This document shows positions 6,247 through 28,465 of a stretch of 34,029 bases of DNA, piece by piece. Numbering within the stretch: the stretch's first letter is position 1; every line of letters starts with the position of its first letter. The DNA lies in assembly GCA_947453065.1 (NCBI GenBank), contig CANGFJ010000008.1, positions 1-34,029 on the forward strand. The letters are read 5' to 3'. The notes beneath the pieces were generated by a model. That model did not search any database. It saw only the letters and a program-made list of their open reading frames with translations, and was not told the origin of the DNA. Position numbers and translations under genes: made by a program. The DNA comes from Pseudomonadota bacterium (GTDB taxonomy: Bacteria; Pseudomonadota; Gammaproteobacteria; Steroidobacterales; Steroidobacteraceae).

Positions 6247-7202
6247 ACCACACGGCCACTGCCACGCCCTATCCCCGTGACCTCACCGGCTATGGCCGGG
6301 TGCCGCCCCATGCCGCCTGGCCGGGCGGCGCACGACTCGCGCTGCAGTTCGTGCTGAACCACGAGGAAGGCGGCGAGAACAACGTGCTGGATGGCGACGC
6401 CGCGTCGGAGACTTTTCTCTCCGAGATCGTGGGTGCGCAGGCCTACCCCATGCGCCACATGAGCATGGAATCGTTGTTTGAATATGGCTCGCGCGCCGGC
6501 CTGTGGCGCGTGCTGCGGGCATTCGAGTCCCGAAAGCTGCCGCTGACGGTCTTCGGCGTCGCGCGCGCCCTGCAGCGGCATCCCGAGGCCGTTGCAGCCT
6601 ATCGGGAACTCGGCCATGAAATCGCGGCGCATGGCTTGCGATGGATCACCTATCAGCAGGTGGACGAAGCCACGGAACGCGCCCACCTGGCAGAGGCCGT
6701 GGCCATCCTGAAAGACCTCACTGGCGCTGCGCCGCTGGGGTGGTACACAGGCCGCGACAGCCCGAACACGCGCCGCCTGGTGGTGGAGCACGGTGGGTTT
6801 GTCTATGACTCGGACTCGTATGCCGACGATCTGCCGTACTGGACGCAGGTCGCCGGCCAGGCCCATCTGGTCGTGCCCTACACGCTGGACAGCAACGACA
6901 TGCGCTTCGCCGCGCTACAGGGGTTCAACTCCGGCACGCAGTTCTTCGATTACCTGAAGGACTCCTTCGACACGCTGTACCGCGAAGGAGACCCGAACGG
7001 ACTCAATCGCCCGAAAATGCTGTCCATCGGGCTGCACGCCCGCTTGTGCGGCCGCCCGGGGCGCATCGCCGCGCTGGAGCGGTTTCTGGATTATGTGAGT
7101 GGCCGTGAGCACGTCTGGATCTGTCGTCGCATCGACATCGCCCGACACTGGCAGGCCACGCACCCCTGCCCCGCCGACAGCGGCGCACAGGCGGCGCGAT
7201 GA
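6243..7202 (+). CDS. puuE: Allantoinase PuuE (polysaccharide-deacetylase-fold)
   Basis: PuuE hydrolyses allantoin to allantoate and is unrelated to the amidohydrolase AllB. The 319-residue protein begins YPRDLTGYGRVPPHAAWPGG and continues with ALQFVLNHEEGGENNVLDGD, both diagnostic of PuuE. It has the NodB-like ELGHEIAAHGLRW segment near residues 121-133 and WYTGRDSPNTRRLV. It overlaps guaD and the uraD-allC fusion by ATGA at each end, placing it between urate oxidation and allantoate hydrolysis in the transcript as well as in the pathway. Confidence 0.94.
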   Translation: MNHTATATPYPRDLTGYGRVPPHAAWPGGARLALQFVLNHEEGGENNVLDGDAASETFLSEIVGAQAYPMRHMSMESLFEYGSRAGLWRVLRAFESRKLPLTVFGVARALQRHPEAVAAYRELGHEIAAHGLRWITYQQVDEATERAHLAEAVAILKDLTGAAPLGWYTGRDSPNTRRLVVEHGGFVYDSDSYADDLPYWTQVAGQAHLVVPYTLDSNDMRFAALQGFNSGTQFFDYLKDSFDTLYREGDPNGLNRPKMLSIGLHARLCGRPGRIAALERFLDYVSGREHVWICRRIDIARHWQATHPCPADSGAQAAR

Positions 7203-8935: not shown

Positions 8936-10191
8936 ACACTGCCACTTTCATCAGCGACTGGGTCGCGCGTCATTTCGCCTCGGAGCAGGCCTTCCTGGCT
9001 GCCATGGTGCGCACGCCCAGCGACAACCCGCCTGGCGACTGCGCTGCGCATGCCGCCGTCGCACAACGGGAACTGGAGGCACTGGGCCTGGCCGTAGAGG
9101 TGTACCCAGTGCCGCAAGCCGAAGTAGCCGCCGCGGGCATGATCTCGGCCACCAACCTGATCGTGCGGGCGAGTTTCGGCACAGGCGGCCCCTGTATCGC
9201 GCTCAATGCCCATGGCGATGTGGTGCCACCCGGTGAGGGCTGGACACAAGACCCCTATGGCGCGGCCATTGTCACCGACCCAGTCCATGGCCCGGTGATG
9301 ATCGGGCGGGGTGTGGCCGTGAGCAAATCCGACTTTGCCACCTACACCTACGCGCTGCTGGCCCTGAATGCGCTGGCTGCCGAAGGTCAGGCCCTGTGCG
9401 GCACCCTGGAATTGCACCTCACCTATGACGAGGAGACCGGCGGGGACATCGGACCTCGCTGGTTGATCGAGCAGGGCCTGACGCACCCGGACCTGGCGAT
9501 CGGCGCAGGGTTTTCCTATGCAGTGACCACGGCCCACAACGGTTGCCTGCACCTGGAAGTGACGGTGCGTGGCCGCGTGGGCCACGCTGCGATGCCGGAG
9601 TCAGGTATTGATGCCCTGGCGGCCACGACCCAGATCCTGGGCGAGCTGTACGCCTCGCGCGAGGCGCTGAAGTCACGGCGCTCACAGGTCAAGGGCATTG
9701 ACCATCCGACGCTCAATGTCGGCCTGATCGACGGCGGCATCAACACCAATGTCGTCCCCGACAAAGTCAGCTTCCGGATCGACCGGCGCATCATTCCCGA
9801 GGAGTCCCCCGAGATTGCTGAGCAGGAACTGCGGGCGCTGATCAACGCGGCCGCTTCGCGCTGCGCCCCTGGCATTCAGGTGGAGATCAGGCGCATCCTG
9901 CTGGCCCTGCCCCTACCGCAGTTGCCGGGCGCTGAACGGTTGACGCAGGCGCTGCAGCGCCACGGTGCCGTCTATTTCGGTACGCCCATTGCCGAGCATG
10001 GCGTACCGCTGTACACGGACGCGCGTCACTACACGGCCGCAGGCATCCCCACCGTGCTCTACGGCGCTGGTCCGCGCACGCTGAAAGAAGCCAATGGTCA
10101 TGGTGCCGATGAATGCCTGCGCCTGGAAGACCTGCGCCATGCGACCGAAACCGTCGCGGCCGCCCTGGCTGAACTGCTCACCGCTTCGTGA
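8932..10191 (+). CDS. M20-family metallohydrolase (ArgE/DapE-like), substrate unknown, possibly a ureide
   Basis: The 419-residue cytoplasmic protein has the full set of M20 di-zinc residues: H94 and D96 in NAHGDVVPP, bridging D134 in GRGVAVSKSD, catalytic and metal acids E167-E168 in TYDEETGGDIG, and H390 in NGHGADE. Dimerisation-domain glycines (GRVGHAAMPE, LIDGGINTNVVPD) are also present. It is distinct from the AllC half of the preceding gene, being closer to the acetylornithine/succinyl-diaminopimelate group. It starts at ATG 8932 inside the preceding stop and overlaps the next gene as GTGA. Position in a ureide operon that lacks ureidoglycolate lyase suggests an amide hydrolase acting late in purine breakdown, but nothing in the sequence fixes the substrate. 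Confidence 0.82.
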   Translation: MNTATFISDWVARHFASEQAFLAAMVRTPSDNPPGDCAAHAAVAQRELEALGLAVEVYPVPQAEVAAAGMISATNLIVRASFGTGGPCIALNAHGDVVPPGEGWTQDPYGAAIVTDPVHGPVMIGRGVAVSKSDFATYTYALLALNALAAEGQALCGTLELHLTYDEETGGDIGPRWLIEQGLTHPDLAIGAGFSYAVTTAHNGCLHLEVTVRGRVGHAAMPESGIDALAATTQILGELYASREALKSRRSQVKGIDHPTLNVGLIDGGINTNVVPDKVSFRIDRRIIPEESPEIAEQELRALINAAASRCAPGIQVEIRRILLALPLPQLPGAERLTQALQRHGAVYFGTPIAEHGVPLYTDARHYTAAGIPTVLYGAGPRTLKEANGHGADECLRLEDLRHATETVAAALAELLTAS

Positions 10192-11324
10192 GCGCCAAGC
10201 GCATTCACCGGCTCGCCCTGATGCTCCTGGTGGCGGGAGTCACCAGCCTCTGCACGCCAGACCTGCGGGCGCAGACGCCACCGGAACGACGGAAGGTCAT
10301 CATCGACCAGGACGCCTTCGGCCCGGGTGGCTCCAACATGCAGGCCATCCTGATGCTGTTGCAGGCACGCGATGTCGACGTGCTGGGTATCACGATCACC
10401 AGTGGCGACGGCTGGCGGGACGAGGAAGTAGACCAGACGTTGCGACTGCTGGAGGTTGCGGGGCGGCCCGATGTCCCCGTTGTTCCCGGGGCAGTGCTGC
10501 CCCTCGTCAACAACCCGGCCCGCAGCAAGGCCTGGGAGGCACTGTATGGCAAGCTCTACTACAAGGGTGCCTGGACCGAACGCTGGCCTGACCAGGGCGT
10601 CACTCGCCGCACGCCCCACCCGGACAACGCGTTCCTGGTGCCACCTTCGCCGGCGGGCACGCCGCACCTCAAGCCCTCCGGAGAGATCGCCGCGAACTTC
10701 CTGCTGCAGGCGGTGCGCAAGTACCCGGGCCAGGTCAGTCTCATTGCCGCCGGGCCACTGACCAACATCGCGCTGGCTGCGCGCCTGGATCCGCAGTTCA
10801 GCAGCCTGGTGAAAGAACTGGTGTTCATGGGCGGCAGCTTCAACCCCAAGACGGCGGACAATGCCTTCGCCGCCGAATATGCGAACGCACCGCGCCGGGA
10901 GTTCAACTTCCGCTGGGACCCGGAAGCCACGTCGGCCGTGCTGCACGAACGCTGGGCGCACATCACGCAGGTTCCGGTAGATCCCACGACCCGCACTCTG
11001 TTTACACCCGCCATGCTTCAGCGCGTGGCCGCGGGCAAAGCGCCCTTCGCGGCCCATATCGGCCAGTTCGGCGAACCCTATCCGATGTGGGACGAACTGG
11101 CGGTAGCCGTCTGGCTGGATCCCACGCTGGTCACCCGCTATGCGCCACTGCTGGTGGATGCAGACACCAGTTTCACAGGTAGTTACGGCAACACGCTGAG
11201 CTGGTCACCCGGTGAAGGCCCTGGCCTGGGAGAGCAACTGGTACACGTCGTGCAAGACATTGATATCAAGCGCTTCGAATCCCTGACCGTAGACCTGCTG
11301 AGCCGACCCGCACCGACCCACTGA
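10188..11324 (+). CDS. Exported nucleoside hydrolase with variant active-site loop
   Basis: Nucleoside hydrolases split nucleosides into base and ribose. This 378-residue protein has a cleavable signal peptide (about residues 1-28, hydrophobic core LALMLLVAGVTSL, cleavage near LRA-Q), so it should act in the periplasm. The N-terminal beta strand and loop read VIIDQDAFGPGGSN (38-50). The first two Asp of the usual DxDxGxDD calcium motif are kept (D40, D42), but the last two are replaced by Pro/Gly. The usual His-Asp near the C-terminus is W301-D302. LLEVAGRPDVPVVPGA and VSLIAAGPLTNIALA are typical of the family. The GTG start at 10188 overlaps the M20 stop as GTGA and gives a good signal peptide. 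Substrate is not certain because of the variant loop. Confidence 0.82.
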   Translation: MSAKRIHRLALMLLVAGVTSLCTPDLRAQTPPERRKVIIDQDAFGPGGSNMQAILMLLQARDVDVLGITITSGDGWRDEEVDQTLRLLEVAGRPDVPVVPGAVLPLVNNPARSKAWEALYGKLYYKGAWTERWPDQGVTRRTPHPDNAFLVPPSPAGTPHLKPSGEIAANFLLQAVRKYPGQVSLIAAGPLTNIALAARLDPQFSSLVKELVFMGGSFNPKTADNAFAAEYANAPRREFNFRWDPEATSAVLHERWAHITQVPVDPTTRTLFTPAMLQRVAAGKAPFAAHIGQFGEPYPMWDELAVAVWLDPTLVTRYAPLLVDADTSFTGSYGNTLSWSPGEGPGLGEQLVHVVQDIDIKRFESLTVDLLSRPAPTH

Positions 11325-11363
11325 CCCGGCCCCTTACAAGAACTGACCGTCGAGGACTTCTTC

Positions 11364-12791
11364 ATGCGTATCCGTCTCGCTTTCCTGGGCTGCCTGCTCG
11401 GCCTTTTCGGGCCCACCCTACCCGCCAGCGCCGCCGACGCCTGGTTCGATGAGGTCAAAGCCACCGCGACACCTGACCAGCTGTATCGCTTCCTGTACGC
11501 GCTTCCGAAGGGCGGCGACCTGCACAACCACCTGACGGGGGCCGTGCGGTCGGAATGGTTCTGGGATTCCGCGATGAACCAGGCCTCGCGCGGTTACGTG
11601 TACTACACCCGCGTTCGCATCGAGAACTGTGCGCCCTACGGCAACAACGAATTCGGTGGCGCCAAGGCGCTGTTGCTGTTCAAGAACATCCAGTCTCCTA
11701 CCTACGCGAAACTCAGTGACTGCAGCAAGTCCGAGTTCAAGCGCCTGCAGGACCTCGACGCGCGCGAGAAACAGGCCTGGCTCAACAGCATGCGCCTGGA
11801 TGAAAGCTATGAAGGGCGAGATGAGTTTTTTGACGCCATCTGGGACCGCATCAACGACCTGCTGCTCAATCCCTACCTGATCTGCGACATCCTCCTGCGC
11901 AACATGGAGGCTTTCGGCAAGGAAGGCCTGGTGTACCTGGAAACCCAGCAGGGCGTGGAAGGGGCCGTCAAGGCAGACGGCACGCCGTATAGCAATGACG
12001 ACGTGGCTACGATCTTCAGGCAGTTCCTCGCCTCCCCACAGGCAAAGGCCACGGGCGTCGAAGTGCGCCTGCAGAACGCACTGCTGCGGTTCACGCCCAA
12101 TGCGGAACAGCGCCTGCGCGAGCTGTATGCCATCACGGACCGCTACCGCGACCTCTATGTCGGCGTGAACATGGTCGGGCGCGAGGACAACGACAAGGGT
12201 TACCCGCTGCGCTTCCTACCGGTGCTGCGCGAGCTGCGGCACAAGTATCCCGACATCAACCTGTCCATTCATGCGGGCGAAGTCGATGAACCCAACTACC
12301 ACATCCGGGACACGCTGCTGCTGGGGGCCCAGCGCATTGGCCATGGCGTCAACCTGATCACCGACCCCGAGACCATGTTGAGGATGCGCAATGGTCCGTA
12401 CATGGTGGAGATCAATCTCATCAGCAATCTGCTGCTGGAGTATGTCAGCGACTATTCGCAGCACCCCTTCCCCGAATACCTGCGGGTCGGCATTCCGGTG
12501 GCCCTGTCGACGGATGACCGGGGCATGTGGGACTCGAACCTGACCGACGAGTTCTATGTGGCCGTGAAGGAGTTCAACCTGTCGTGGCCGGAAATCGTGA
12601 AGCTCGGTCGCAACTCCCTGCAGTATTCCTTCCTGGACGAGCCGACAAAGCAGCGGCTCCTGCGCGAGTATGAGCAGCGCATGACCGCCTTCGCACAGCG
12701 CTTCCAGAAGAAGGGCTGGGCGGGTCTGGCCGATGTAAAGCCCGTGACCTACACCTTCCTCTGCAAGCACTACCAGGTCTGCCAGCCATGA
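11364..12791 (+). CDS. Exported adenosine deaminase-like protein, copy 1
   Basis: The 475-residue amidohydrolase has a signal peptide (residues 1 to about 24, cleavage at ASA-AD) and the adenosine deaminase metal and catalytic motifs. These are H54 and H56 in DLHNHLTG, H303-A-G-E306, the RIGHG motif, and D384-D385 in STDDRGM. The long N-terminal region before and after the first motif and paired Cys (FLCKHYQVC) recall secreted ADA/ADGF-type enzymes rather than the 330-residue cytoplasmic Add. It should convert adenosine (or deoxyadenosine) to inosine in the periplasm. It starts 39 bp after the nucleoside hydrolase, the only real gap in this operon since puuD, with GAGGA about 10 bp upstream. 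Its stop overlaps copy 2 as ATGA. Confidence 0.86.
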   Translation: MRIRLAFLGCLLGLFGPTLPASAADAWFDEVKATATPDQLYRFLYALPKGGDLHNHLTGAVRSEWFWDSAMNQASRGYVYYTRVRIENCAPYGNNEFGGAKALLLFKNIQSPTYAKLSDCSKSEFKRLQDLDAREKQAWLNSMRLDESYEGRDEFFDAIWDRINDLLLNPYLICDILLRNMEAFGKEGLVYLETQQGVEGAVKADGTPYSNDDVATIFRQFLASPQAKATGVEVRLQNALLRFTPNAEQRLRELYAITDRYRDLYVGVNMVGREDNDKGYPLRFLPVLRELRHKYPDINLSIHAGEVDEPNYHIRDTLLLGAQRIGHGVNLITDPETMLRMRNGPYMVEINLISNLLLEYVSDYSQHPFPEYLRVGIPVALSTDDRGMWDSNLTDEFYVAVKEFNLSWPEIVKLGRNSLQYSFLDEPTKQRLLREYEQRMTAFAQRFQKKGWAGLADVKPVTYTFLCKHYQVCQP

Positions 12792-14242
12792 CGATCCGCG
12801 GCCTGTGGCAAGGGGTCGGGCTGGCCGCACTGCTGCTGGCCCCGACCCTGGCGGGCGCAGCGGCCCCTGACGACTGGTTCGAGCAGGTCAAAGCCACGGC
12901 GACGCCACAGCAGCTGTACACCTTCCTGTATGCGCTGCCCAAGGGCGCCGATCTGCACAACCATCTGCCAGGCGCCGATCGTTCGGAGTGGTTGTGGACC
13001 TCCGCGCTTTCGCAGCAGGCGCGCGGCTACACCTACTACACCCGTGTGCGGGTGGCCAACTGCGCCCCTTACGGCCACAACGAGTTCGGGGGCGGCAAGG
13101 CCCTGCTGTTATTCAAGAACCTCCAAGGCAGCCACTACCAGCAGCTCGATGCCTGCCAGCAGTCAGAGTTCAAACGGCTGCAGGACCTGGACCCGCGCGA
13201 AAAACTGGCATGGATGAACAGCCAACGCCTCGATGAGGCCTATGAAGGTCGGGACGAGTTCTTCAACGCGCATTTCGATCGCGTCGATGAGCTCATCCGC
13301 AACCCGTATGTCATCCGGGATGTGCTGCTCACCAATATGGAAGCCTTCGGCCAGGAAGGACTCGTCTACCTGGAGCTGATGCAGTTTGTCACCGGTACCC
13401 TCCGGGCGGATGGCACACCCTTTCCGGCTGACGAGGTGGCGGCGCTGTTCCGCGAGGCGCTGGCCTCGCCGCGCGCACGGGCCACTGGGGTGGAAGTACG
13501 TTTCCTGGATACCGTCCTCCGGTTCGCGCCGAATGCAGAGCAACTCTTGCGTGACAGCTATGCCGTTGTGGACCGCTATCGCGACCTCTATGTGGGCACG
13601 AACCTCGTGGGCCGCGAAGACAACGACAAAGGCTATCCGCTGCGCTTCCTGCCAGTGTTGCGTGAACTGCGCCACCAATACCCGGACATCCACCTGTCGA
13701 TCCACGCCGGCGAAGTGGATGAACCCAACACACACATCCGGGACACCCTGTTGCTGGGTGCCGAGCGCATTGGCCATGGCGTCAACCTCATCAGCGATCC
13801 GGAGGGCATGCGGCTGATGCGCAACGGCCCCTATCTGGTCGAGGTCAACTTGATCAGCAATCTGCTGCTCGAATATGTGGGCGACTACACGCAGCACCCG
13901 TTCGGTGAGTACCTGCGAACCGGAGTGCCGGTAGCCCTGTCGACGGATGATCGGGGCATGTGGGACTCGAACATGAGCGACGAGTACTACGTTGCGGTCA
14001 AGGAGTTCAATCTCTCCTGGCCGGAACTCGTCACCCTCGGGCGCAACTCACTGCGCTACGCCTTCCTTGATGACGCCACCAAGCAACGACTGCTTGCCGG
14101 CTATGACCGCCGCATGGCTGCCTTCGAGCAGCGCTTCCGGCAGCAAGGCTGGGCCAGCCTGTCGGGGACCCAGCCCGAGAGCTATGGCTTCCTCTGCCGA
14201 CACTACCAACTGTGTCAGTGGCCGGGCGTCGTCTCACGATAG
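12788..14242 (+). CDS. Exported adenosine deaminase-like protein, copy 2 (tandem paralogue)
   Basis: The 484-residue protein aligns with copy 1 over its whole length, sharing long identical blocks such as GREDNDKGYPLRFLPVLREL and STDDRGMWDSN. Metal and catalytic residues are intact: H57 and H59 in DLHNHLPG, H306-A-G-E309, RIGHG and TDD. A signal peptide covers residues 1 to about 23 (LAALLLAPTLAGA). The start ATG 12788 lies in the stop of copy 1. The two copies differ most near the first His motif (LTGAVRSEWFW versus LPGADRSEWLW) and in the segment after EGLVYLE (TQQGVEG versus LMQFVTG), which may tune substrate choice. Its 3' end overlaps the convergent NUP-family gene by 28 bp. Confidence 0.86.
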   Translation: MTIRGLWQGVGLAALLLAPTLAGAAAPDDWFEQVKATATPQQLYTFLYALPKGADLHNHLPGADRSEWLWTSALSQQARGYTYYTRVRVANCAPYGHNEFGGGKALLLFKNLQGSHYQQLDACQQSEFKRLQDLDPREKLAWMNSQRLDEAYEGRDEFFNAHFDRVDELIRNPYVIRDVLLTNMEAFGQEGLVYLELMQFVTGTLRADGTPFPADEVAALFREALASPRARATGVEVRFLDTVLRFAPNAEQLLRDSYAVVDRYRDLYVGTNLVGREDNDKGYPLRFLPVLRELRHQYPDIHLSIHAGEVDEPNTHIRDTLLLGAERIGHGVNLISDPEGMRLMRNGPYLVEVNLISNLLLEYVGDYTQHPFGEYLRTGVPVALSTDDRGMWDSNMSDEYYVAVKEFNLSWPELVTLGRNSLRYAFLDDATKQRLLAGYDRRMAAFEQRFRQQGWASLSGTQPESYGFLCRHYQLCQWPGVVSR

Positions 14243-15303
14243 CCCGCCCACCCGCTCAGCAGCGCCTGCACGACGATGTTACCGACGCTGTAGGCCGCCT
14301 CGATGGCGGGACGCCCCCCTTCCGGGTATTCGGCCGTGGTGCTCCAGGCCGTGCTTTGGCCGGGCGGTGCCATCGAATAATTGCTCGCAGTCCGTAACAC
14401 CATGACGCGTTGCAGGTCGGCTTTGCCGACCCGGGAAAGGCGGCGCAGCGCCGTGAGCGTGCCGCTGTCTTCCATGTTGGACATCATGAAATTCGCGTCG
14501 CTGCCAGCCTGCAGCTTCACCCAGTCGTTGGCCCAGGTGTTCAGGTGCAGGCCATGCCAGTACTTGCTGGATGACAGGCTGTCGCCCAGCGTCACAAACG
14601 GCGGGCGCACAGCGTTGGGATAACCCGCGAATTGCTGACGGAATTCAGCCAAGGCCGGCCGGTCTGCCAGGGGATGGTCGCGCGTCAAGGCATAGGCCCA
14701 CTCGGCAAGACCTGCATTCAGCGGGTAATGGATGGTATCCACCGTCCAGCCATTGGCGATGTCGTTGGGTTTCTTCGCCCCCAGCGGCAGCAGGCCGTAG
14801 GGCCAATCCGCGGGAATCTCCCGGGCGTCGATCTCGTAGAGCAGGTCGCCATCCACCACGTGCCTGGCCCAGGCGGCCGTGCCCAGCGACACATCCAGCG
14901 GATCACCGCCAGCGATGCCGGCAATCAGCCAGTAGGCTTTGCTGAGGTCGAAGCGAGGATCCAGGCCCAGCGCCAGGATGGACGTCGTCGCATTGGTGAT
15001 GCCGCCGCCTGTGCAGATCAGCAGCACACCGGCGTCATTCATCCGCAGTTCGTACTCGCCCAGCGGAAATGCAAACGCCCGATCCAGCTTCTGACGTTCG
15101 ACCCACAGCTGCGCCTCTCCGGGTGCGTCACCGCTGAGTTGGCCGTTCTCGAACATCGACACCACGACCACTTTCACGGGAATGGGGCGGGGCGGCACCG
15201 AAACAGACGCGGCCTGCACCATTTCAGCCGCCGACCACAGCAGCAGGACACAGGAAGCGGCCGTCACCCGACACAGGCGGGAGAAGCGGGAATGGCTGGA
15301 CAT
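14215..15303 (-). CDS. Exported NUP-family purine nucleoside protein, copy 1 (nucleoside phosphorylase-like)
   Basis: The family is annotated purine nucleoside permease after a fungal protein, but this 362-residue protein has only an N-terminal signal peptide (about 1-31, cleavage near VQA-AS) and no other membrane segment. Stretches resemble the nucleoside phosphorylase-I fold: WLIAGIAGGDPLDVSLG, then SNMEDSG (E278) and VLRTASNYS (S307-N308), which line up with the MEA and RAISD motifs of MTA/SAH nucleosidase. It is therefore more likely a periplasmic nucleoside-binding or -cleaving protein than a transporter. Start ATG 15303 is chosen because of AAAGGA upstream and the signal peptide; an upstream alternative at 15435 would overrun the divergent promoter region. 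A sigma-54-type promoter precedes it. Confidence 0.8.
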   Translation of the reverse strand: MSSHSRFSRLCRVTAASCVLLLWSAAEMVQAASVSVPPRPIPVKVVVVSMFENGQLSGDAPGEAQLWVERQKLDRAFAFPLGEYELRMNDAGVLLICTGGGITNATTSILALGLDPRFDLSKAYWLIAGIAGGDPLDVSLGTAAWARHVVDGDLLYEIDAREIPADWPYGLLPLGAKKPNDIANGWTVDTIHYPLNAGLAEWAYALTRDHPLADRPALAEFRQQFAGYPNAVRPPFVTLGDSLSSSKYWHGLHLNTWANDWVKLQAGSDANFMMSNMEDSGTLTALRRLSRVGKADLQRVMVLRTASNYSMAPPGQSTAWSTTAEYPEGGRPAIEAAYSVGNIVVQALLSGWAGYRETTPGH

Positions 15304-15368
15304 CAGGACTGATCCTTTCAGGCGGCGTTTTAAGCGAGAGGTTCGCGCGAGGCGCGTCAGTTCAAATC

Positions 15369-15384
15369 TGCAAGAGGCGGGCCA
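15369..15384 (-). promoter_or_regulatory. Sigma-54 promoter for NUP copy 1
   Basis: Read on the - strand, TGGCCCGCCTCTTGCA matches the sigma-54 consensus with one change (A to C) and the required 10-bp GG-to-GC spacing. The predicted start is near 15359, about 55 bp upstream of ATG 15303. Only 5 bp (15385-15389) separate it from the promoter on the other strand. Confidence 0.62.
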
Positions 15385-15389
15385 CAGTC

Positions 15390-15405
15390 TGGCACTGGAC
15401 TTGCA
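15390..15405 (+). promoter_or_regulatory. Sigma-54 promoter for the adenine/adenosine deaminase operon
   Basis: TGGCACTGGACTTGCA matches the sigma-54 consensus TGGCACG-N4-TTGCW, with GG (15391-15392) and GC (15403-15404) separated by exactly 10 bp. The predicted transcript start is near 15416, about 30 bp before the ATG at 15447. This implies activation by a bacterial enhancer-binding protein such as NtrC, which would fit purines as a nitrogen source. Confidence 0.75.
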
Positions 15406-15446
15406 GATTTGCTGCCCTGCCTCCCTTGCGACCACAGGACATCACC

Positions 15447-16454
15447 ATGAGCGGATTCATACAGCGCCTCCCAAAGACTGAGCTGCACGTTCACCTGGAA
15501 GGCACCCTGGAGCCAGACCTGAGCTTTTCACTGGCCCGCAAGAACGGCATCGACCTGCCCTATGCGTCCCCCGAAGCCTTGCTGCAGGCCTATGACTTCC
15601 ATGACCTGCCGTCATTCCTGACGATTTACTACAAGGCCATGAACGTCCTGCAGGACGAATCAGACTTCTATGCACTGACCTGGGCCTACCTGTGCAAGGC
15701 CAAAGAGCAGAACATCGTGTACGCAGAGTTGTTCTTCGACCCCCAGGCGCACACCTCGCGCGGCGTCGCGTTTGACGTGGTGATCCGCGGCATACGCCGG
15801 GCGCAGGAACAGGCTGCCGCGGAACTGGGGGTGGAGACGCAGCTGATCCTGTGTTTCCTGCGTGACTTCAGTGCCGAATCGGCCATGCAGACCCTGGTCG
15901 AGGCCCTGCCCTGGAAGCACTGGCTGGTAGGCGTCGGCTTGGACTCCGACGAAAAAAACAACCCACCGATCAAGTTTTCGGCGGTCTTTGCCCTGGCCAG
16001 GGCTGAAGGCCTGAAGCTGACGATGCACTGCGACGTGAACCAGCTCAACACGCTGGTCCACATTGGCCAGGTGCTGCACGAGATCGGCGTCGATCGCATC
16101 GATCACGGCATCAATGCACTGGAAGATCCGGAGCTGTGCCGCGTGATCGCAGAGCGTGGATTGGGGCTCACCGTCTGCCCCGTCTCTAACCGGTTCTGCG
16201 TGCAGGACCTCACCGCGACGCAGTTGCGCCAAATGCTGCAGCTGGGCATGCGGGCCACGGTCAACTCCGATGACCCGGCCTACTTCCGCGCCTATCTGAA
16301 CGAGAACCTTTTGGCACTGCAGGACGAAGGCGGAATGACTCGGGCCGAGATCGTGCAGCTGGTCCGCAACGGCTTTGAGGTGGCCTGGATCCCGGAGGAA
16401 CGCCGCAGCCACTATCTGCACGCACTCAATCAGTACGTGGCGTCTGCATCATGA
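15447..16454 (+). CDS. Adenosine/adenine deaminase-family protein (cytoplasmic), variant HCDV motif
   Basis: The 335-residue protein lacks a signal peptide. It opens with LPKTELHVHLEGTLEPDLSF (H14, H16) and FFDPQAHTSRG, features shared with the adenine-deaminase branch of the Add family. It retains VDRIDHGINALEDPEL and NSDDPAYF (D275, D276). The usual HAGE motif, whose Glu is the catalytic acid in adenosine deaminase, reads H194-C-D-V197, so the Glu is absent at that place and an Asp lies one residue earlier. It may therefore act on a different aminopurine. I place the start at ATG 15447, about 30 bp after the sigma-54 promoter. Its stop overlaps the next gene as ATGA. Confidence 0.85.
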   Translation: MSGFIQRLPKTELHVHLEGTLEPDLSFSLARKNGIDLPYASPEALLQAYDFHDLPSFLTIYYKAMNVLQDESDFYALTWAYLCKAKEQNIVYAELFFDPQAHTSRGVAFDVVIRGIRRAQEQAAAELGVETQLILCFLRDFSAESAMQTLVEALPWKHWLVGVGLDSDEKNNPPIKFSAVFALARAEGLKLTMHCDVNQLNTLVHIGQVLHEIGVDRIDHGINALEDPELCRVIAERGLGLTVCPVSNRFCVQDLTATQLRQMLQLGMRATVNSDDPAYFRAYLNENLLALQDEGGMTRAEIVQLVRNGFEVAWIPEERRSHYLHALNQYVASAS

Positions 16455-18337: not shown

Positions 18338-18352
18338 CGCGGGACCGCAGCG

Positions 18353-19495
18353 GTGCGTCGTGTCCTTCTGCTGATTGGCACGCTGTGGCTGTCTGTCGGC
18401 GTGTGCCAGGCGCACCTGCTCAACATGACGAAAGTGCAGATCAGCATCGATGCCGATGGCAGCGTCGCTGCGGACCTGCAGGTGGACCTGAGCCGTTCTG
18501 CGGGTGGCGGACTTACGTACTACCGCTACAGCCGCGTCGCAGAGCCGCTGCACGACCCGGAGGTCCGCGCGCTGCTGGATCGCCTTGGCACTGCCATCAC
18601 GCTACAGCTGGGCGCTGAGCGCATTCCACTGGCCGTCCGCAGCGCACGCTTCCCGGACGTCAGCAAAGAGGCCTTCCTGGACCCACTGAGCTGGCCGATG
18701 ACCCAGGTCCAGTTCCAGGGCACCCTCCCCGCGCAGTGGCAGCAGAGTCCTGGCGGACTACGGGCGGTGTTCAAACCAGGGTTCCACTTCGAAGAGCCCA
18801 TTGCCCTGACCTTCATGAGCCTTCCGGAACAGCGCAGCCAGACTCGCTGGCTGGTGACCTCGCAAACCAGCCAGGACTTCCCGCTGCCGGGTGCTGCAGC
18901 GGCAGGCCAGTCCAGCGCGGGCGCGGAGGAGCGGCCGTGGCAGTTCGTGGGCTTTGGCTTCCTGCACATCCTGCCTAAGGGACTGGACCATGTGCTCTTC
19001 GTGCTGGGTCTGGCGCTCGGCGCACGCAGCCTGAAGTCGCTGCTGGCACTGGTCACGGGCTTCACACTCGCGCATTCCCTCACGCTGGCGCTGGCAGCTG
19101 TCGGTCTCCTGCGCCTGCCGGCCAATGTGGTCGAGCCCCTGATCAGTGCCTCGATTGTGTGGATCGGCGTCGAGAACATGTTCCCCGGGACGAAGGTCGA
19201 TCGCTACCGACCGCTGCTCGTCTTCGGTTTCGGCCTGATGCACGGCCTGGGGTTCGCCAGTGCACTCTCCTCGCTGCAGGCACCCCAGGGCAGCTACCTG
19301 CTTGCCTTGCTGGGCTTCAACGCGGGGATCGAAATCGGACAGCTCACCGTGATCGCTGCGACCCTGAGCCTGACAGTGTGGTGGCGAGGCAGGCCTTGGT
19401 ACCGCTCAGCCATCACCCTGCCGGGTTCGGCCGCGATCGCGCTCATCGCCACGTTCTGGACCCTGCAGCGCGTGATGCTCGCACTGCAGGGCTAA
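18353..19495 (+). CDS. HupE/UreJ-type membrane protein with periplasmic N-terminal domain
   Basis: The 380-residue protein has a signal peptide (GTLWLSVGVCQA-H), a roughly 180-residue extracytoplasmic beta-rich region, then about six to seven membrane helices. The second half contains GFLHILPKGLDHVLFVLGLA (H205, D212, H213), GFTLAHSLTLALA and GFGLMHGLGFASAL, matching the HupE/UreJ_2 family. Relatives are linked with nickel, cobalt or other metal handling, but the substrate is unproven. The GTG start at 18353 is required for the signal peptide. It is the last gene of the deaminase operon and lies away from urease, so it may serve the metal-dependent deaminases. It faces the next operon with 11 bp between stop codons. 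Confidence 0.78.
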   Translation: MRRVLLLIGTLWLSVGVCQAHLLNMTKVQISIDADGSVAADLQVDLSRSAGGGLTYYRYSRVAEPLHDPEVRALLDRLGTAITLQLGAERIPLAVRSARFPDVSKEAFLDPLSWPMTQVQFQGTLPAQWQQSPGGLRAVFKPGFHFEEPIALTFMSLPEQRSQTRWLVTSQTSQDFPLPGAAAAGQSSAGAEERPWQFVGFGFLHILPKGLDHVLFVLGLALGARSLKSLLALVTGFTLAHSLTLALAAVGLLRLPANVVEPLISASIVWIGVENMFPGTKVDRYRPLLVFGFGLMHGLGFASALSSLQAPQGSYLLALLGFNAGIEIGQLTVIAATLSLTVWWRGRPWYRSAITLPGSAAIALIATFWTLQRVMLALQG

Positions 19496-19506
19496 GGGCA
19501 CTGGGC

Positions 19507-20349
19507 CTAGAGGTAACCGAGCAGGTGCAGCGAGAACTTGGCGGCCTCGCGCGCGGCAATCGGGCCCAAGCGCAGGTAATCGTCGTTCGGCGCTTCCTGC
19601 GCGGCATTGCTGCCAGCACGGACAATCAAGTAGGGAACGCCGAGTGTCTCGCAGACGTGTCCCAGCGGCGCCGACTCCATTTCCATGATGTCGGTATTGA
19701 AGCGGCTGCGCAGGTCATCAATGCGTTGCTGGGTAACGCCAAACAGGTCTGATGAAGACACGATGCCACGTCGCCCCTTCACGGTGTAGGTCGCGCCATT
19801 GGCCGTTACCTCCGGCCCCTTGTAGCTGGCCAGGGCGAGGTCAGCCCTGGCAAGCAGCGACGCAGGCGGCGAAAAGCGGTTTTCCACTTCGTTGCCGTCT
19901 ACCGGGCCATTCATCGCGCGGTACACCATGCCTTCGCGCGTGAGACTGCCGTAATCGTGCTCGTAGGTGCTGGTGGCAACGATCACATCGCCCGTGCGCA
20001 GTTGTGCATTGATGCGTGCGCCAGTGCCACTCATCAGCACCATCTTGGGCTTGAAGGACTGGATGAACAGGGTGGTGGTCATCGCCGTAAAGGTCTTGCC
20101 GATACCCGTGATGGCCACCACCACCGGCTTGCCGGCCAGCTTCCCCTGATAATAGGGAATGCCCCACAGCTCACGCTTGGCCGGATGGCCCATGGCGTCG
20201 GTGAAGATCGTGATCTCCTGCGGCACGGCGCCCAGGATGACGATCGTATCGCTGGGCGTGTAGTACCGCGGCGTTGCCGGTGCCTCACCGGCCTGTGCGC
20301 CAACGGCGAGGAGCGCAAGGGCAGCAAGCTGCAGCAATCTGTTCATCAT
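19507..20349 (-). CDS. Exported MTAN/PNP-family nucleosidase or phosphorylase
   Basis: The 280-residue protein has a signal peptide (1-20, LALLAVGAQA-G) followed by a nucleoside phosphorylase-I fold. Visible motifs are VAITGIGKTFTAMTT, MSGTGARINAQLRTGDVIVA (base- and phosphate-loop region), IMEMES (E223, E225) and GVPYLIVRAGSNAAQ. Compared with the RAISD motif of MTA/SAH nucleosidase, the catalytic Asp is Asn248. It should cleave purine nucleosides in the periplasm. The ATG at 20349 overlaps the dioxygenase stop (ATGA) and has CGGAG upstream; the next ATG at 20346 is an alternative. It is the last gene of the 27526-19507 unit. Confidence 0.83.
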   Translation of the reverse strand: MMNRLLQLAALALLAVGAQAGEAPATPRYYTPSDTIVILGAVPQEITIFTDAMGHPAKRELWGIPYYQGKLAGKPVVVAITGIGKTFTAMTTTLFIQSFKPKMVLMSGTGARINAQLRTGDVIVATSTYEHDYGSLTREGMVYRAMNGPVDGNEVENRFSPPASLLARADLALASYKGPEVTANGATYTVKGRRGIVSSSDLFGVTQQRIDDLRSRFNTDIMEMESAPLGHVCETLGVPYLIVRAGSNAAQEAPNDDYLRLGPIAAREAAKFSLHLLGYL

Positions 20350-21248
20350 GTCGGACTCCGATGGGTGGCAGCAATTTTCTGGCTGATGTGTGCACCCGCC
20401 GTGGTGGGCGGATAACGCGCTGGCCTTGCAGGTGTGACGCAGGCTGGCAGGCATTCGACCGGGACGGCGGAGTCGGGGTCGACAAACAGGGCGATCGAAT
20501 AGCGATCGACAGGGCCGCGGATCGGCCTCACGCGGTGAACGGTCGAGCGGTAGCGTCCGTTAGTCCAGCGTTCCAGGAGGTCGCCGGCATTGATGACCAG
20601 GGCATCCGGCACGGGTGGGGCTGCGTGCCACTCACCCTGCGCATCCCGCACTTCCAGGCCACCCACGGCGTCCTGGACCAGCAGCGTGAGCGTTCCATAG
20701 TCGGTGTGCGCGCCGGCCCCGAGCTGGGCCTCCGTGCAAACCGCCAGGTTCGCCGGGTAGTGCAGCAAGCGCAGCGTGACGTTTTCACCCTGATGCCGTT
20801 GCGTAAAGAAGTCCGGCGGCAGGGACAGGCCGGGCGCCAGCACGGCCATCAGCCGATGCGCAGCGGCCAGGGCAGAGGTATAAAACGCGAGCGCAGTGGC
20901 CTGGAACTCCGTGTCGGGCCAGGGGACCCGCCGTGCGTCCCGCAGCAGGGGGTTGCGCATCGTGAAGGTTTCTTTCAGATCGGGCATCGACAGGGGATCA
21001 AGGCGTTCACGGCCAATACCCTGGAAACCGAAGTTGGCCTCTACGTCTGAATAGACGTAACGGTCTTTGCGGTCCTCGGGCTGGGCAAAGAAGCGCCGGG
21101 CCGTGCTGAACAGACGCGCGGTCAGCGCGGCATCGATCCCGTGCCCGGTCAGGTACAGAAAGCCACTGACCGCCAGCGCCTCATCGATAGCCGCTGGCGC
21201 CGCATCGGCCGAAAGATCGATGACAGGCAGGCACAACGCATCGCTCAT
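20346..21248 (-). CDS. Fe(II)/2-oxoglutarate dioxygenase, isopenicillin N synthase-like
   Basis: The 300-residue cytoplasmic oxygenase has the family N-terminus (LPVIDLS, SGFLYLTGHGI) and the double-stranded beta-helix core. Iron ligands are H181 and D183 (AHTDYGTLTLL) and H238 (STVHRV), with the 2-oxoglutarate pair R249 and S251 (DRYSIAL). It is wedged between 8-oxoguanine deaminase and a nucleosidase, overlapping both by 4 bp, so a purine substrate is likely. Oxidation of a purine ring (for example to xanthine or urate) is an inference; it is not related by obvious motif to the fungal TauD-like xanthine dioxygenase. A similar oxygenase near 8-oxoguanine deaminase is known to me from Pseudomonas purine loci. 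Confidence 0.83.
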   Translation of the reverse strand: MSDALCLPVIDLSADAAPAAIDEALAVSGFLYLTGHGIDAALTARLFSTARRFFAQPEDRKDRYVYSDVEANFGFQGIGRERLDPLSMPDLKETFTMRNPLLRDARRVPWPDTEFQATALAFYTSALAAAHRLMAVLAPGLSLPPDFFTQRHQGENVTLRLLHYPANLAVCTEAQLGAGAHTDYGTLTLLVQDAVGGLEVRDAQGEWHAAPPVPDALVINAGDLLERWTNGRYRSTVHRVRPIRGPVDRYSIALFVDPDSAVPVECLPACVTPARPARYPPTTAGAHISQKIAATHRSPT

Positions 21249-22606
21249 CCCAGCACGATCTTCGCTGCCAGCCGATTCACGTTCTCTACCAGTTGCGGCA
21301 ACTCCGCCGTCGTCAACCTGCCCTGGTCGACGACACGACGCCCATTAATGAAACTGTAGTCAACGGTTCCGACGTCACAGAGCACCAGCGCCGCCACCGG
21401 ATCGTGCAAGGCCCCCGCAAAAGACGGCCGGTCCAGGTCAATGCTGATGAAATCCGCCGACATACCCGGCGCGAGCGATCCGATGTCATCGCGACCCAGC
21501 ACCCGCGCACCACCCAGCGTCGCCATCTCCAGCGCCTGTCTAGCGCTCATCGCCGCAGCATCAAGGTCGAGGACTCGCGCCGACAGGCAGGCCTGACGGG
21601 CCTCATGAAACAGGTTGGTGGCATCGTTGGAGGCGGCGCCATCGGCCCCGAGGCCAACGTTGACACCGGCCAAGAGCATCTTGCGCACGGGTGCAAACCC
21701 ACTGGCCAGTCGCATATTGCTGCAAGGGCAATGCGCAACGCCGGTACCGCTGCGCGCAAATCGCGCAATGGCGCTGTCGTCCAGCCACACACAGTGGGCA
21801 TGCCAGACGTCCGGCCCCATCCAGCCGACAGACTCTGCGTAATCACCCGGCGTCATGCCAAAGACCGCCAGGCTGTAGGCCACGTCGGGCTTGCTCTCCG
21901 CCAAATGGGTATGCAAGCGCACCCCCGGATAGCTACGGGCCAGCGCAGCAGATTCTTTCATCAAGGCCGGTGACACCGAGAAGGGCGAACAGGGCGCGAG
22001 GGTAATGCGGGTCATCGCGTGCCGGGAATTGTCGTGCCAGGTTTCAATCAGGCGGCGGCTGTCCCGCAGGATGCTCGCTTCGTCTTCCACCACCGAGTCC
22101 GGCGGCAAGCCACCCTTGCTCTCGCCGACACTCATGCTGCCGCGACTGGCATGGAACCGAAGGCCAATCTCCTGCACCGCGCGGATCTCGTCATCCAGGG
22201 TGGAATCGTTCGGAAAAATGTAGAGGTGGTCGCTGGCGGTCGTGCATCCGGAAAGAATGAGTTCCGCCGCGCACATCTGGGCGCTCGCCCGCACGCCCTC
22301 TGCGGTCAGCCGCGCCCAGATCGGATACAGCGCCTTGAGCCAGCCGAACAGATCGACGTTTTGCGCCGCAGGAATGGCGCGTGTGAGCGTCTGGTAGAAA
22401 TGATGGTGCGTATTCACCATGCCTGGCATCACCAGATGCCGCCCCTTGAGGTCGAGCACCTCGTCCGCCGCATCGGGCAAGTCTGCGGTGTGCCCGACCT
22501 GCTCGATGACCCCGTCACGCACGAAGATCGCGCCATCGCGCAACTCCTCACGCGCGGCGTTCATCGTCACGAGGGTATGGATCTGGCGGATCAGAAGCGT
22601 CGTCAT
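21245..22606 (-). CDS. 8-oxoguanine deaminase
   Basis: This cytoplasmic amidohydrolase converts 8-oxoguanine to urate and ammonia. The 453-residue protein has the characteristic PGMVNTHHHFYQTLTRA (H67 to H69), GWLKALYPIWARLT, GCTTASDHLYIFPN, HTHLAES, HCPCSNMRLASG and LGADGAASNDATNLFHEARQ, the last being distinctive of the branch represented by P. aeruginosa PA0142 and Pfl4080. The product enters the same pathway as PuuD's substrate. It overlaps the NCS2 permease upstream and the dioxygenase downstream by ATGA. Guanine deaminase activity alone is covered by guaD, so the two enzymes are probably not redundant. Confidence 0.9.
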   Translation of the reverse strand: MTTLLIRQIHTLVTMNAAREELRDGAIFVRDGVIEQVGHTADLPDAADEVLDLKGRHLVMPGMVNTHHHFYQTLTRAIPAAQNVDLFGWLKALYPIWARLTAEGVRASAQMCAAELILSGCTTASDHLYIFPNDSTLDDEIRAVQEIGLRFHASRGSMSVGESKGGLPPDSVVEDEASILRDSRRLIETWHDNSRHAMTRITLAPCSPFSVSPALMKESAALARSYPGVRLHTHLAESKPDVAYSLAVFGMTPGDYAESVGWMGPDVWHAHCVWLDDSAIARFARSGTGVAHCPCSNMRLASGFAPVRKMLLAGVNVGLGADGAASNDATNLFHEARQACLSARVLDLDAAAMSARQALEMATLGGARVLGRDDIGSLAPGMSADFISIDLDRPSFAGALHDPVAALVLCDVGTVDYSFINGRRVVDQGRLTTAELPQLVENVNRLAAKIVLG

Positions 22607-23958
22607 TGCCGTTCACCAGGCAGGAAAATATTGAGGAAGAGCGCGCACATGCCACCGCTGGCAATGCCGGACGACAGGGTACTACGCAGGAACGCAGGCA
22701 AACTCTGCGTGATCTCTGGCACGAAACTGACCCCCAGGCCGATACCCAGGGAGGTCGCAAGAATCGTGGCATTTCGTCGATTCATCGGCACGCGCGACAG
22801 GATGCGGATTCCCGAGGCCGCCACCATGCCGAACAGGATCAGCGTGGCACCACCGAGCGCAGACGGGGGCAGTGCCTGCACCAGGACCCCGACACCCGGC
22901 ATCAGGCCCAGCAGCATCAGCATGCCGCCGATGAACAGGCCGACGTAACGACTGCCCACGCCCGTCAGCTGGATGACGCCATTGTTCTGCGCAAACGTCG
23001 TGCTGGGGAAGGACGTCAGGCAGGCCCCCACCAGCGAATTGATGCCGTCAGCCAGCAGCCCCCCCTGCAGGCGCTTGAAATACACGGGCCCTGAAATGGG
23101 CTGCCCCGTCAGTGAAGAGGTCGCGGTGAGGTCCCCAATGGATTCCATCACGGTAATCAAGTACATGAACAGGAACGGCAGGAACACCGAGACGTCAAAC
23201 GAAAGCCCATAACGGAACAGGGTCGGCACATTCAACAGTGGTGCCTCATGCAGCGGCGACAGGTCGATGCGACCCAGGAGCGCAGCGGCCAGATAGCCTG
23301 CTGCAAGACCCAGCACGACGGACAGCATCCGCAGGCGTGGTGAGCGACAGCCGTTGAACACGAGGATGACCACCGTCACCAGCGCCGCCAGCCCGAGGTT
23401 CTGCAAGCTACCGAAGCTGCCGTCGGCCTTGGCGCCATAGCCACCCCCCACGCTCACCATGCCCACCTCCACGAGCGTGAGGCCGATCAGCAAAACCACC
23501 GTCCCTGTGACAACGGGGGTAATCACGGCATTGGCGTAGCGGATATAGCGGCTGACGAGCATCACCACGAGGGAGCCCGCCAGGCACAGCCCGAAAATAC
23601 CGCCCAGCGCCTGCTGCGCCGTCGCGCCACCGGCCATCGCGGCACCGGCGACGGAGATGATGGGTGCAATAAAGGTAAAGCTTGTGCCTTGAATGCTCAG
23701 CAGCCCGGACCCCACCGGACCAATGCGCGAGGTCTGCAGCATCGTGGCGGCACCCGACACGAACAAGGACATGCTGATCAGGTAGGCCGTCTCGATGGCT
23801 CCCAGCTTCAATGCCCCGGCAATCAACAGCGGCGGCGTAATCATGCCCACAAACACTGCAAACACATGCTGCAGGGCCACCAACAGCGTCTCGCGAAGCG
23901 GTGGACGATCCTCCAGTCCGTGGATCAAGTCCGCCGAGTCCGCAAGGGGCCTGTTCAC
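22603..23958 (-). CDS. NCS2-family xanthine/uracil-type permease (XanQ-like)
   Basis: This is a proton-coupled inner-membrane nucleobase transporter of 451 residues with about 14 membrane segments. The NCS2 signature QNNGVIQLTGVGSRYVG is present and closely matches the E. coli xanthine permease XanQ, as do PVVTGTVVLLIGLTL and the AGAAMAGGATAQQ segment. I start it at GTG 23958, which overlaps the upstream NUP stop as GTGA in keeping with its neighbours. An ATG at 23997 would add 13 residues inside the preceding gene. Xanthine, hypoxanthine or urate are the probable substrates, inferred from motif and neighbours. Confidence 0.9.
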   Translation of the reverse strand: MNRPLADSADLIHGLEDRPPLRETLLVALQHVFAVFVGMITPPLLIAGALKLGAIETAYLISMSLFVSGAATMLQTSRIGPVGSGLLSIQGTSFTFIAPIISVAGAAMAGGATAQQALGGIFGLCLAGSLVVMLVSRYIRYANAVITPVVTGTVVLLIGLTLVEVGMVSVGGGYGAKADGSFGSLQNLGLAALVTVVILVFNGCRSPRLRMLSVVLGLAAGYLAAALLGRIDLSPLHEAPLLNVPTLFRYGLSFDVSVFLPFLFMYLITVMESIGDLTATSSLTGQPISGPVYFKRLQGGLLADGINSLVGACLTSFPSTTFAQNNGVIQLTGVGSRYVGLFIGGMLMLLGLMPGVGVLVQALPPSALGGATLILFGMVAASGIRILSRVPMNRRNATILATSLGIGLGVSFVPEITQSLPAFLRSTLSSGIASGGMCALFLNIFLPGERQ

Positions 23959-25013
23959 GGGGCCTGGGCGGGCGTGTGATCGCGGTACACCGACCACTTA
24001 CTGACAAGTTCATTGACCACCGTGGACCCCACCCGGTAGGCCGCCTCTACGGAAGCATTAAGCCCGGCATATCCATCATTCTCTTTCAGTAAGTGTTCCG
24101 CGGCCGTCATGCCAGGCGGCGGCATTGTGTAATTGCTGGCGGTCCGCAGCACCATCATGCGGTCCTTATTCACCTTGCCGGTGGGGTGCAGGTAGGTCAG
24201 GGACTGCAGGCTGCCGGTGTCTTCCATCGCCGAGGTCACAAACTGCCCTTTTCCATCGGTCCAGTATTCCGTCCAGCGATTAGCCCACTCGTTGAGAATC
24301 TTGCCGTGCCAGAACGTCATGGCCGCCAGGTTGTCTCCCTTGAGCACGAATGGCGGGCGCTGCGCGTTCGGATAGCCCGTGAAGTGCGAGCGGGTCTCCT
24401 GCAGCGCGGGACTGTCCTCCAGCACCACGTTGCGTGTGAGTTGATACGCCCACTCGGTGAGCGCGCCATTCAAGTGCAGCACCTCACCCGTAGGCTTGGG
24501 CTTGTTCGGGTCATAGGGTTTGCGCGTGTTACGCGCGAAATAGCCGGTGGGCCAGTCAGCTGGCTTCTCCCGCGCATCGATTTCATGTGCGAGGTCGCCA
24601 TCTACCAGGTACTCGGCCCAGCCGGCGGAGCCAATCGAGGCATCCTCAGGGTCTACCCCGGCGATCCCGGCAACCAGCCAGTACGCATGCGAGAGGTCAA
24701 ACCGGGGATCGAGTCCCAACGCCATGACGGCGGTGGCTGAATTAATGCTGCCCATGTCCGTCACCATGCCGAGAACGCCGGTGTTCGGGTTCAGGTACAG
24801 GTCATGGCTGTGGGCAAAGGGATAGCGCTTGTCGAGCTTCTGGCGCTCGCGCCAGAGCTGGAATTCGCCGGCGGTATCGCCGGTGTCGGCACCAATTTCA
24901 AACATGCTGACCACCACCACTTTCACCTCGATGGGACGAGGGGGAGCGGGCGTCGCGGTGCAACCCACCAGCGCAAGAGCCAGGGCAACCGGAGCAATCA
25001 GCCTATGAAACAT
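23955..25013 (-). CDS. NUP-family purine nucleoside lipoprotein, copy 2
   Basis: The 352-residue paralogue of the 14215-15303 protein has a lipoprotein signal peptide with lipobox LVGC and lipidated Cys18, so it should be membrane-anchored in the periplasm. It shares VKVVVVSMFE, QLWRERQKLD, ALGLDPRFDLS, WLVAGIAGVDPEDASIG, SAMEDTGSL (E264) and VLRTASNYTMPPPG (S293-N294). There is no transmembrane domain that would support the label permease. Start ATG 25013 has AAGGA at a good distance and gives the lipobox. It lies 83 bp after the TonB receptor, with a strong hairpin between, and its stop overlaps the NCS2 gene. Confidence 0.8.
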   Translation of the reverse strand: MFHRLIAPVALALALVGCTATPAPPRPIEVKVVVVSMFEIGADTGDTAGEFQLWRERQKLDKRYPFAHSHDLYLNPNTGVLGMVTDMGSINSATAVMALGLDPRFDLSHAYWLVAGIAGVDPEDASIGSAGWAEYLVDGDLAHEIDAREKPADWPTGYFARNTRKPYDPNKPKPTGEVLHLNGALTEWAYQLTRNVVLEDSPALQETRSHFTGYPNAQRPPFVLKGDNLAAMTFWHGKILNEWANRWTEYWTDGKGQFVTSAMEDTGSLQSLTYLHPTGKVNKDRMMVLRTASNYTMPPPGMTAAEHLLKENDGYAGLNASVEAAYRVGSTVVNELVSKWSVYRDHTPAQAP

Positions 25014-27526: not shown

Positions 27527-27632
27527 AGGAATCCTTCGCAATGGCAGATCGAGAGACCAGCGGCGCACAGGGCCGCTATGCGTAGGAACTAAGCAAGAAG
27601 CGTGCACACTTCACGGTTGCGCATGAAAAACA

Positions 27633-28452: not shown

Positions 28453-28465
28453 GAGGGATCTCCTG

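Follow-up and report, generated by a model that had tools for sequence, protein, structure and literature searches.

Where does a bacterium that degrades purines for nitrogen carry out the first steps on nucleosides, inside the cell after importing them whole or outside its inner membrane? This question is raised by a contig of 34,029 nucleotides (GenBank assembly GCA_947453065.1, contig CANGFJ010000008.1; henceforth the window, i.e. the whole stretch analysed) from a gammaproteobacterium of the Steroidobacteraceae. We consider it likely that the window carries a locus for the catabolism of purines to ammonia in which the initial steps, those acting on nucleosides, take place outside the inner membrane, such that the purines are probably cut down to bases before crossing into the cell and being burned for nitrogen. 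A preliminary description of the sequence had drawn attention to seven purine-active proteins, namely a nucleoside hydrolase (NH), two ADGF-type adenosine deaminases (ADGF1 and ADGF2), an adenine-deaminase-like protein (AdeX), a nucleosidase resembling MTAN and purine nucleoside phosphorylase (PNP), and two members of the NUP family (NUP1 and NUP2); their genes were confirmed using the list of open reading frames, Pfam and NCBIfam. It had placed the locus at 10188-25013, where it is indeed found, but its true extent is larger, as it fills most of the window and runs on into a second contig, C122.

The N-termini were scored with a home-made rule based on hydrophobicity and a cleavage site, rather than with SignalP, and signal-peptide-like N-termini were found on all seven proteins, as had been proposed. 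NH, ADGF1, ADGF2, AdeX and the MTAN-like protein gave positive calls at the listed starts, that of the last being 20349, which overlaps the stop of the neighboring 2OG-Fe(II) oxygenase gene; NUP1 and NUP2 did so at the inner starts 15303 and 25013, the latter with a lipobox. The preliminary description held that export would be contradicted by a lack of signal peptides in close homologs, which were sought in 79 distinct named loci detected by similarity to both ADGF copies (corresponding to the best 80 of 234 relatives). Calls were retained in 161 of 175 such homologs (ADGF 77/82, NUP 71/79, MTAN-like 11/12, NH 2/2), as against 1 of 111 neighbors of the cytoplasmic type, i.e. PuuE (0/26), guanine deaminase (0/11), 8-oxoguanine deaminase (1/18), 2OG oxygenases (0/6), others (0/13), and the family of a third adenosine deaminase (ADA) homolog in the window that itself lacks a signal peptide (0/37). 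Rows truncated at contig ends did not enter this comparison, PuuD, NCS2 and the ATP-binding cassette (ABC) permeases were excluded as controls, and the sequences are related by descent, making a Fisher value for it no true probability. No homolog of AdeX was found in the named loci. The conservation of the signals among homologs supports export, and the seven enzymes are predicted from their N-termini to be periplasmic.

That these N-termini are instead chance hydrophobic starts, or the product of wrong start codons on cytoplasmic enzymes, appears extremely improbable. Within window proteins the rule does fire at 55 of 789 internal pseudo-starts, implying about 7% chance noise per single call, and 14 of the 175 homologs lack a call; but this explanation sits poorly with the difference between the homologs and the cytoplasmic neighbors, and with the recurrence of cleavage motifs and lipoboxes across homologs whose signal sequences themselves diverge. 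Like the homologs without a call, the firing of the rule on membrane neighbors (PuuD 4/9, NCS2 3/15, ABC permease 1 4/4, ABC permease 2 0/3) speaks against export, given that a positive call marks an initial hydrophobic stretch with a plausible cleavage site rather than actual cleavage, and does not distinguish a signal peptide from a first membrane helix. This confusion matters less for the seven proteins because they belong to predicted soluble families.

Both deaminase copies combine the A_deaminase domain with an N-terminal ADGF-type extension and the signal peptide, which places them in the ADGF type; they match TIGR01431 over nearly the whole length of that model with 120 and 117 bits, below its cut-off of 315. 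The metal-binding and catalytic positions (HxH, HxGE, H and DD) are invariant in 85 of 85 rows, and the best solved chains are 9nti and 9nte, with ADGF-family deaminases being the best-matching chains of ADGF2. As the best solved chains include the Helix pomatia AMP deaminase, AMP is also a possible substrate.

AdeX shares its domains and metal-site motif positions with adenine deaminase (TIGR01178; PDB 3nqb, "Adenine deaminase 2"), the binuclear-site positions H-x-H, E, H, H and D being common to it and four relatives devoid of signal peptides. It differs from adenine deaminase in possessing a signal peptide, in being paired with a HupE/UreJ_2 membrane protein, and in scoring 318.2 bits against the curated TIGR01178 cut-off of 472.5, for which reason we term it adenine-deaminase-like rather than an equivalog. 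It is 31-33% identical to the adenine deaminase types without signal peptides from its class and family. Relatives with at least 57% identity occur in 3 of 217 genomes of the family, its own included, the other two being signal-bearing versions in the genomes G276 (84%) and G472 (57%); matches of 33% occur in three other genomes of the 217, and in the two loci examined (L131 and L132) the deaminase frame drew no signal call. The pair formed by AdeX and HupE/UreJ_2 (16451-19495) is placed after a TonB receptor in G472 (locus L134), which hints at a separate adenine-uptake unit.

NUP1 and NUP2 belong to PF06516, the "purine nucleoside permease" family, with scores of 349.7 and 388 against a gathering threshold of 27. 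The predicted model of NUP2 (predicted local distance difference test, pLDDT, 93; predicted template modeling score, pTM, 0.90) displays the MTAN/PNP fold: its best Foldseek matches are MTANs (8.4e-13), VIA-align superimposes it on 5b7q with a Z-score of 24.5 and a root-mean-square deviation of 2.9 over 236 residues, tied with other MTANs, and beyond the signal peptide it has no long helix run of the permease kind. Glu264, Arg290, Ser293 and Asn294 are invariant in 57 NUP rows (55 of the 79 from the loci and the two from the window) and appear to resemble the E...RxxS[D/N] pattern of MTANs; going by secondary structure, these four residues would lie at the strand-helix and strand-end places occupied by the catalytic Glu and Asp of MTANs. 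Furthermore, Pfam identifies proteins in which a NUP domain precedes an IU_nuc_hydro domain behind a single signal peptide in four loci (L049:13480-15750, L061:5865-7982, L065:17576-19687 and L071:12707-14806). The fold of the NUP2 model, together with these fusions to a nucleoside hydrolase, suggests that NUP is probably an exported nucleosidase or phosphorylase of the MTAN fold and not a permease.

A different role, in which NUP would bind purine nucleosides in the periplasm or form part of a transporter for them, reusing the MTAN fold for binding only, is favored by the family name, by the lipobox called in 47 of 79 NUP rows, which would suit a binding protein, and by the NUP of Candida, which we take to be a member of PF06516. 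The latter, sharing with our proteins the name, is described (PMC9431476) as an adenosine transporter in an adenine-requiring yeast, transport being the reading of its authors, and as conferring no toyocamycin sensitivity; here NUP is interpreted as a soluble exported protein. Extracellular cleavage followed by uptake of adenine would explain both Candida results, though this is our reading and not that of the authors. As the invariant Glu and Asn positions within an MTAN/PNP fold, the hydrolase fusions and the model devoid of a permease-like helix run also count against a purely binding function, we regard it as unlikely.

The MTAN-like protein scores 82.8 bits with TIGR01704 (cut-off 73.8) and 135.3 with NF004079, below its cut-off of 169. 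At the position of the MTAN catalytic Asp (Asp197 in E. coli) it has an Asn in 12 of 12 rows (11 of 13 locus rows and the window), which aligns to the Asp of 4jwt and 6if8; PDB 1z5o is the corresponding E. coli D197N mutant with methylthioadenosine bound. Trimeric PNPs with a catalytic Asn favor 6-oxopurines, a preference that would fit prior deamination. We retain this as an inference only, since the Candida NUP appears to make adenosine usable. NH is a member of the IU_nuc_hydro family (181.6 against a gathering threshold of 34.2), but in place of the DxDxxxDD metal motif all four members (those of the window, L019, L036 and L039) have DQDAFGPxxSN, wherein the first Asp pair is kept and SN stands for DD. 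The fused NUP-NH proteins keep DTDMAIDD in all three NH domains aligned, from three of the four fusions.

We then considered how tightly these genes are linked to one another. Overlapping stop and start codons join M20/NH (GTGA), ADGF1/ADGF2 and ADA/AdeX (both ATGA), and similar overlaps join MTAN/2OG oxygenase, 2OG oxygenase/8-oxoguanine deaminase and 8-oxoguanine deaminase/NCS2, thus coupling the exported genes to other purine genes. The co-occurrence figures from the 79 loci do not extend beyond close relatives of ADGF; 33 of these loci are shorter than 19 kb, so that partners are possibly cut off, and L019-L022 were excluded from the counts (L020 repeats L026). NUP is present in 61 of the 79 (42 of 46 among those of at least 19 kb), a TonB receptor in 36 and both in 35, and 49 encode at least one of PuuE, PuuD, guanine deaminase, 8-oxoguanine deaminase, the cytoplasmic ADA family and NCS2. 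A core of ADGF, NUP and TonB receptor recurs in these 35 loci; all seven genes together were seen only here among the best 80 of 234 relatives. An 11.9-kb contig of G276 bears genes for 8-oxoguanine deaminase, the 2OG oxygenase, the MTAN-like protein, HupE2, AdeX, ADA, ADGF, NH, the OHCU fusion and guanine deaminase. Common as NUP is in the ADGF loci, within the class PF06516 is found in only 5 of 369 genomes and ADGF (E-values up to 1e-40) in 1 of 369, our genome being included in both counts; ADGF is present in 2 of 8 other genomes of the same genus, so the distribution of the locus is patchy. The stop-start overlaps, the recurrence in further genera of a TonB receptor and NUP at the same locus, and the NUP-NH fusions together support a single pathway.

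The remaining genes of the window (Table 1) extend this pathway. Contig C122 (L112) probably adjoins its left end: C122 breaks off inside xdhC, and its terminal 24 bases are identical to those that open the window, with the xdhC reading frame preserved. Along with XdhC, C122 encodes the iron-sulfur/FAD and molybdopterin subunits of an enzyme of the xanthine dehydrogenase type and a protein with a phosphoribosyltransferase domain; it also carries genes for a Bmp/PnrA-like protein and a third NUP, both of which have signal-peptide-like N-termini. Judging by the gene families, the urease genes would provide the final step to ammonia and, with guanine deaminase, PuuD, PuuE, the OHCU/allantoate fusion and xdhABC, make up a purine-to-ammonia route. 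The ABC importer, together with the PnrA-like protein, probably takes up purine nucleosides or bases, its presumed substrates.

Table 1. Genes of the purine locus, with their positions in the window
Feature	Coordinates	Strand	Evidence
ABC importer ATPase	105..1691	+	ABC_tran; best NCBIfam NF047930 (putative B6 importer), below its cut-off
ABC importer permease 1	1684..2769	+	BPD_transp_2
ABC importer permease 2	2766..3692	+	BPD_transp_2
Membrane urate oxidase, PuuD type	3702..4913	+	Urate_ox_N 9.7e-128
Guanine deaminase, cytoplasmic type	4864..6246	+	TIGR02967, 569.6 bits (cut-off 375.4)
Allantoinase PuuE	6243..7202	+	TIGR03212, 513.7 bits (cut-off 424.6)
OHCU decarboxylase fused to allantoate amidohydrolase-like domain	7199..8935	+	OHCU_decarbox, Peptidase_M20; TIGR03164, 198.7 bits (cut-off 96.25)
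M20 family hydrolase	8932..10191	+	Pfam; GTGA overlap with NH
Exported nucleoside hydrolase NH	10188..11324	+	IU_nuc_hydro 3.6e-53; signal peptide; variant metal motif DQDAFGPGGSN
Exported ADGF-type adenosine deaminase 1	11364..12791	+	A_deaminase; signal peptide; catalytic positions
Exported ADGF-type adenosine deaminase 2	12788..14242	+	72% identity to copy 1; solved-chain matches; signal peptide
Exported NUP1	14215..15303	-	NUP 1.9e-104; signal peptide
Cytoplasmic adenine/adenosine-deaminase-family protein	15447..16454	+	HCDV where HAGE expected
Exported adenine-deaminase-like AdeX	16451..18337	+	Adenine_deam_C and Amidohydro_1; 3nqb match; motif positions; signal peptide
HupE/UreJ_2 membrane protein, AdeX partner	18353..19495	+	Pfam; pair also in G276 and G472
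Exported MTAN/PNP-like nucleosidase	19507..20349	-	PNP_UDP_1; signal peptide; Asn at MTAN catalytic Asp position
2OG-Fe(II) oxygenase	20346..21248	-	Pfam
8-oxoguanine deaminase	21245..22606	-	NF006055, 675.1 bits (cut-off 532)
NCS2 xanthine-type permease (start not settled)	22603..23997	-	TIGR03173, 426.9 bits (cut-off 414.15)
NUP2, lipoprotein, MTAN/PNP fold	23955..25013	-	NUP 4e-116; lipobox; model and fold search
TonB-dependent receptor	25097..27607	-	Plug and barrel domains
HupE/UreJ and urease genes (UreF, UreE, UreC, UreD, CobW/HypB/UreG-family protein)	27862..33496	-	Pfam scan, six open reading frames

From the genes, the predicted NUP2 fold, the conserved signal peptides and the gene linkage we infer the location, substrates and order of the following steps. 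Purine nucleosides or nucleic-acid fragments would cross the outer membrane via the TonB receptor; in the periplasm the ADGF-type deaminases would convert adenosine to inosine, and AdeX adenine to hypoxanthine; the N-glycosidic bond would be cut by NUP1, NUP2, the MTAN/PNP-like protein and perhaps NH, with NUP acting as a soluble, often lipid-anchored MTAN-fold nucleosidase or phosphorylase. Bases would then be taken up by the NCS2 permease, with the ABC importer and its PnrA-like protein as a second entry for bases or nucleosides; oxidation in the cell would fall to guanine deaminase, XdhABC, PuuD, PuuE, the OHCU/allantoate enzyme and urease. The preliminary description had deemed such an exported route plausible, with the TonB receptor and NCS2 permease flanking the conversion of adenosine and adenine to 6-oxopurines and free bases, and the comparative evidence (conserved signal peptides, gene overlaps, co-location, fusions and the retained ADGF and AdeX motifs) supports this.

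Several observations weigh against this interpretation. The best NCBIfam model for the TonB receptor is that of siderophore receptors (TIGR01783), albeit below its cut-off. When the profiles of NUP and the MTAN-like protein were compared, and when the PDB was searched with NUP sequences, nothing significant emerged, so that the kinship of NUP with MTAN rests on fold and motif. The Asn in place of Asp197 could reduce or alter the activity of the MTAN-like protein, and NH, going by its metal motif, looks like an altered family member of uncertain activity. In the DNA available, NUP is missing from 18 and the TonB receptor from 43 of the 79 loci, while 30 lack all six of the other purine genes counted above. 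The ABC importer, too, may import intact nucleosides. This importer, the PnrA-like binding protein encoded on C122 and the 30 loci without the six genes would also suit a scenario wherein nucleosides enter whole through this importer and the exported set, merely co-located, serves detoxification, signaling or ribose scavenging; a role of secreted adenosine deaminase in bacterial communication has been suggested (Skaldin 2018, as cited in PMC10358891). Such a scenario leaves aside the stop-start overlaps tying exported to catabolic genes and the majority of loci in which at least one of the six genes is present, and the genome, which is 92% complete, has a single match each for PF01048 and PF01156, both being exported proteins, with no cytoplasmic member of either family found to cleave imported nucleosides. 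We thus hold it to be rather improbable, and processing prior to entry to be the better account of the locus. The lack of PF07662 (CNT-type transporter) matches in this genome, at its 92% completeness, also favors such processing; PF02872 likewise has no match, and the three PF00962 matches all lie in this locus. The absence of a cytoplasmic PF01048 protein was also considered as a special trait of this organism; it was dropped because 14 of 40 genomes surveyed have no PF01048, which, like the incompleteness of the genome, tells against the proposal.

Individual components of the route have precedents. The Bacteroides rus locus for nucleoside and ribose scavenging reportedly brings together TonB-type outer-membrane uptake and nucleoside-cleaving enzymes, but is said to be ribose-directed and SusC/SusD based. 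A secreted bacterial deaminase of the ADGF type has already been published (Skaldin 2018, as cited in PMC10358891); going by that description, the version here is set apart by being a tandem duplicate inside a purine catabolic locus, alongside exported nucleosidases, AdeX and a TonB receptor. Likewise, a periplasmic MTAN is known from Aeromonas hydrophila (PDB 5b7q and 5b7p, according to the entry titles), and it is 5b7q that forms the top VIA-align row for NUP2; NUP2 is about 100 residues longer (352 versus 249) and 14% identical to it, and both NUP and the window MTAN-like protein have an Asn in place of the catalytic Asp of MTANs such as that of E. coli. In a Xanthomonas periplasm proteomics study (PMC7748154), the passages on purines or nucleosides concern other proteins, and adenosine goes unmentioned. 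Searches of open-license PMC papers listed no description of the combined route, in keeping with the remark in the preliminary description that periplasmic purine breakdown at this scale was, as far as its author knew, undescribed as one system. The chief additions made here are the reading of NUP as an MTAN-fold protein, the core of ADGF, NUP and TonB receptor shared with other Gammaproteobacteria, and the greater extent of the locus.

There is perhaps an even chance that some Gammaproteobacteria convert purine nucleosides to bases in the periplasm before importing them, by means of a TonB receptor, exported ADGF deaminases and exported MTAN-fold NUP nucleosidases, the last explaining the "permease" of PF06516, with the catalytic-site Asn tuned to deaminase-made 6-oxopurines; the present lineage would have added an exported adenine deaminase and a variant NH. 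If so, Gram-negative bacteria process purine nucleosides outside the inner membrane much as they do polysaccharides, and annotation and metabolic models are led astray by the name of PF06516. The locus would, moreover, show in what bacterial context the secreted adenosine deaminases act that are held to be ancestral to the animal ADGFs (Skaldin 2018, as cited in PMC10358891).

Two further genes of the window merit mention. The 2OG-Fe(II) oxygenase gene, overlapping those of 8-oxoguanine deaminase and the exported MTAN-like protein, could code for an enzyme acting on a purine. A role for it in place of xanthine dehydrogenase was considered and is not needed, as PF20256 has nine matches in the genome and xdhABC lies on the probably adjoining contig. 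In the third ADA-family protein, HCDVNQ replaces the catalytic HAGE of its relatives; counting the window, HCDV is found in 24 and HAGE in 15 of 39 rows, and from their sequences the two apparently represent paralogous groups, which in some loci are encoded side by side.

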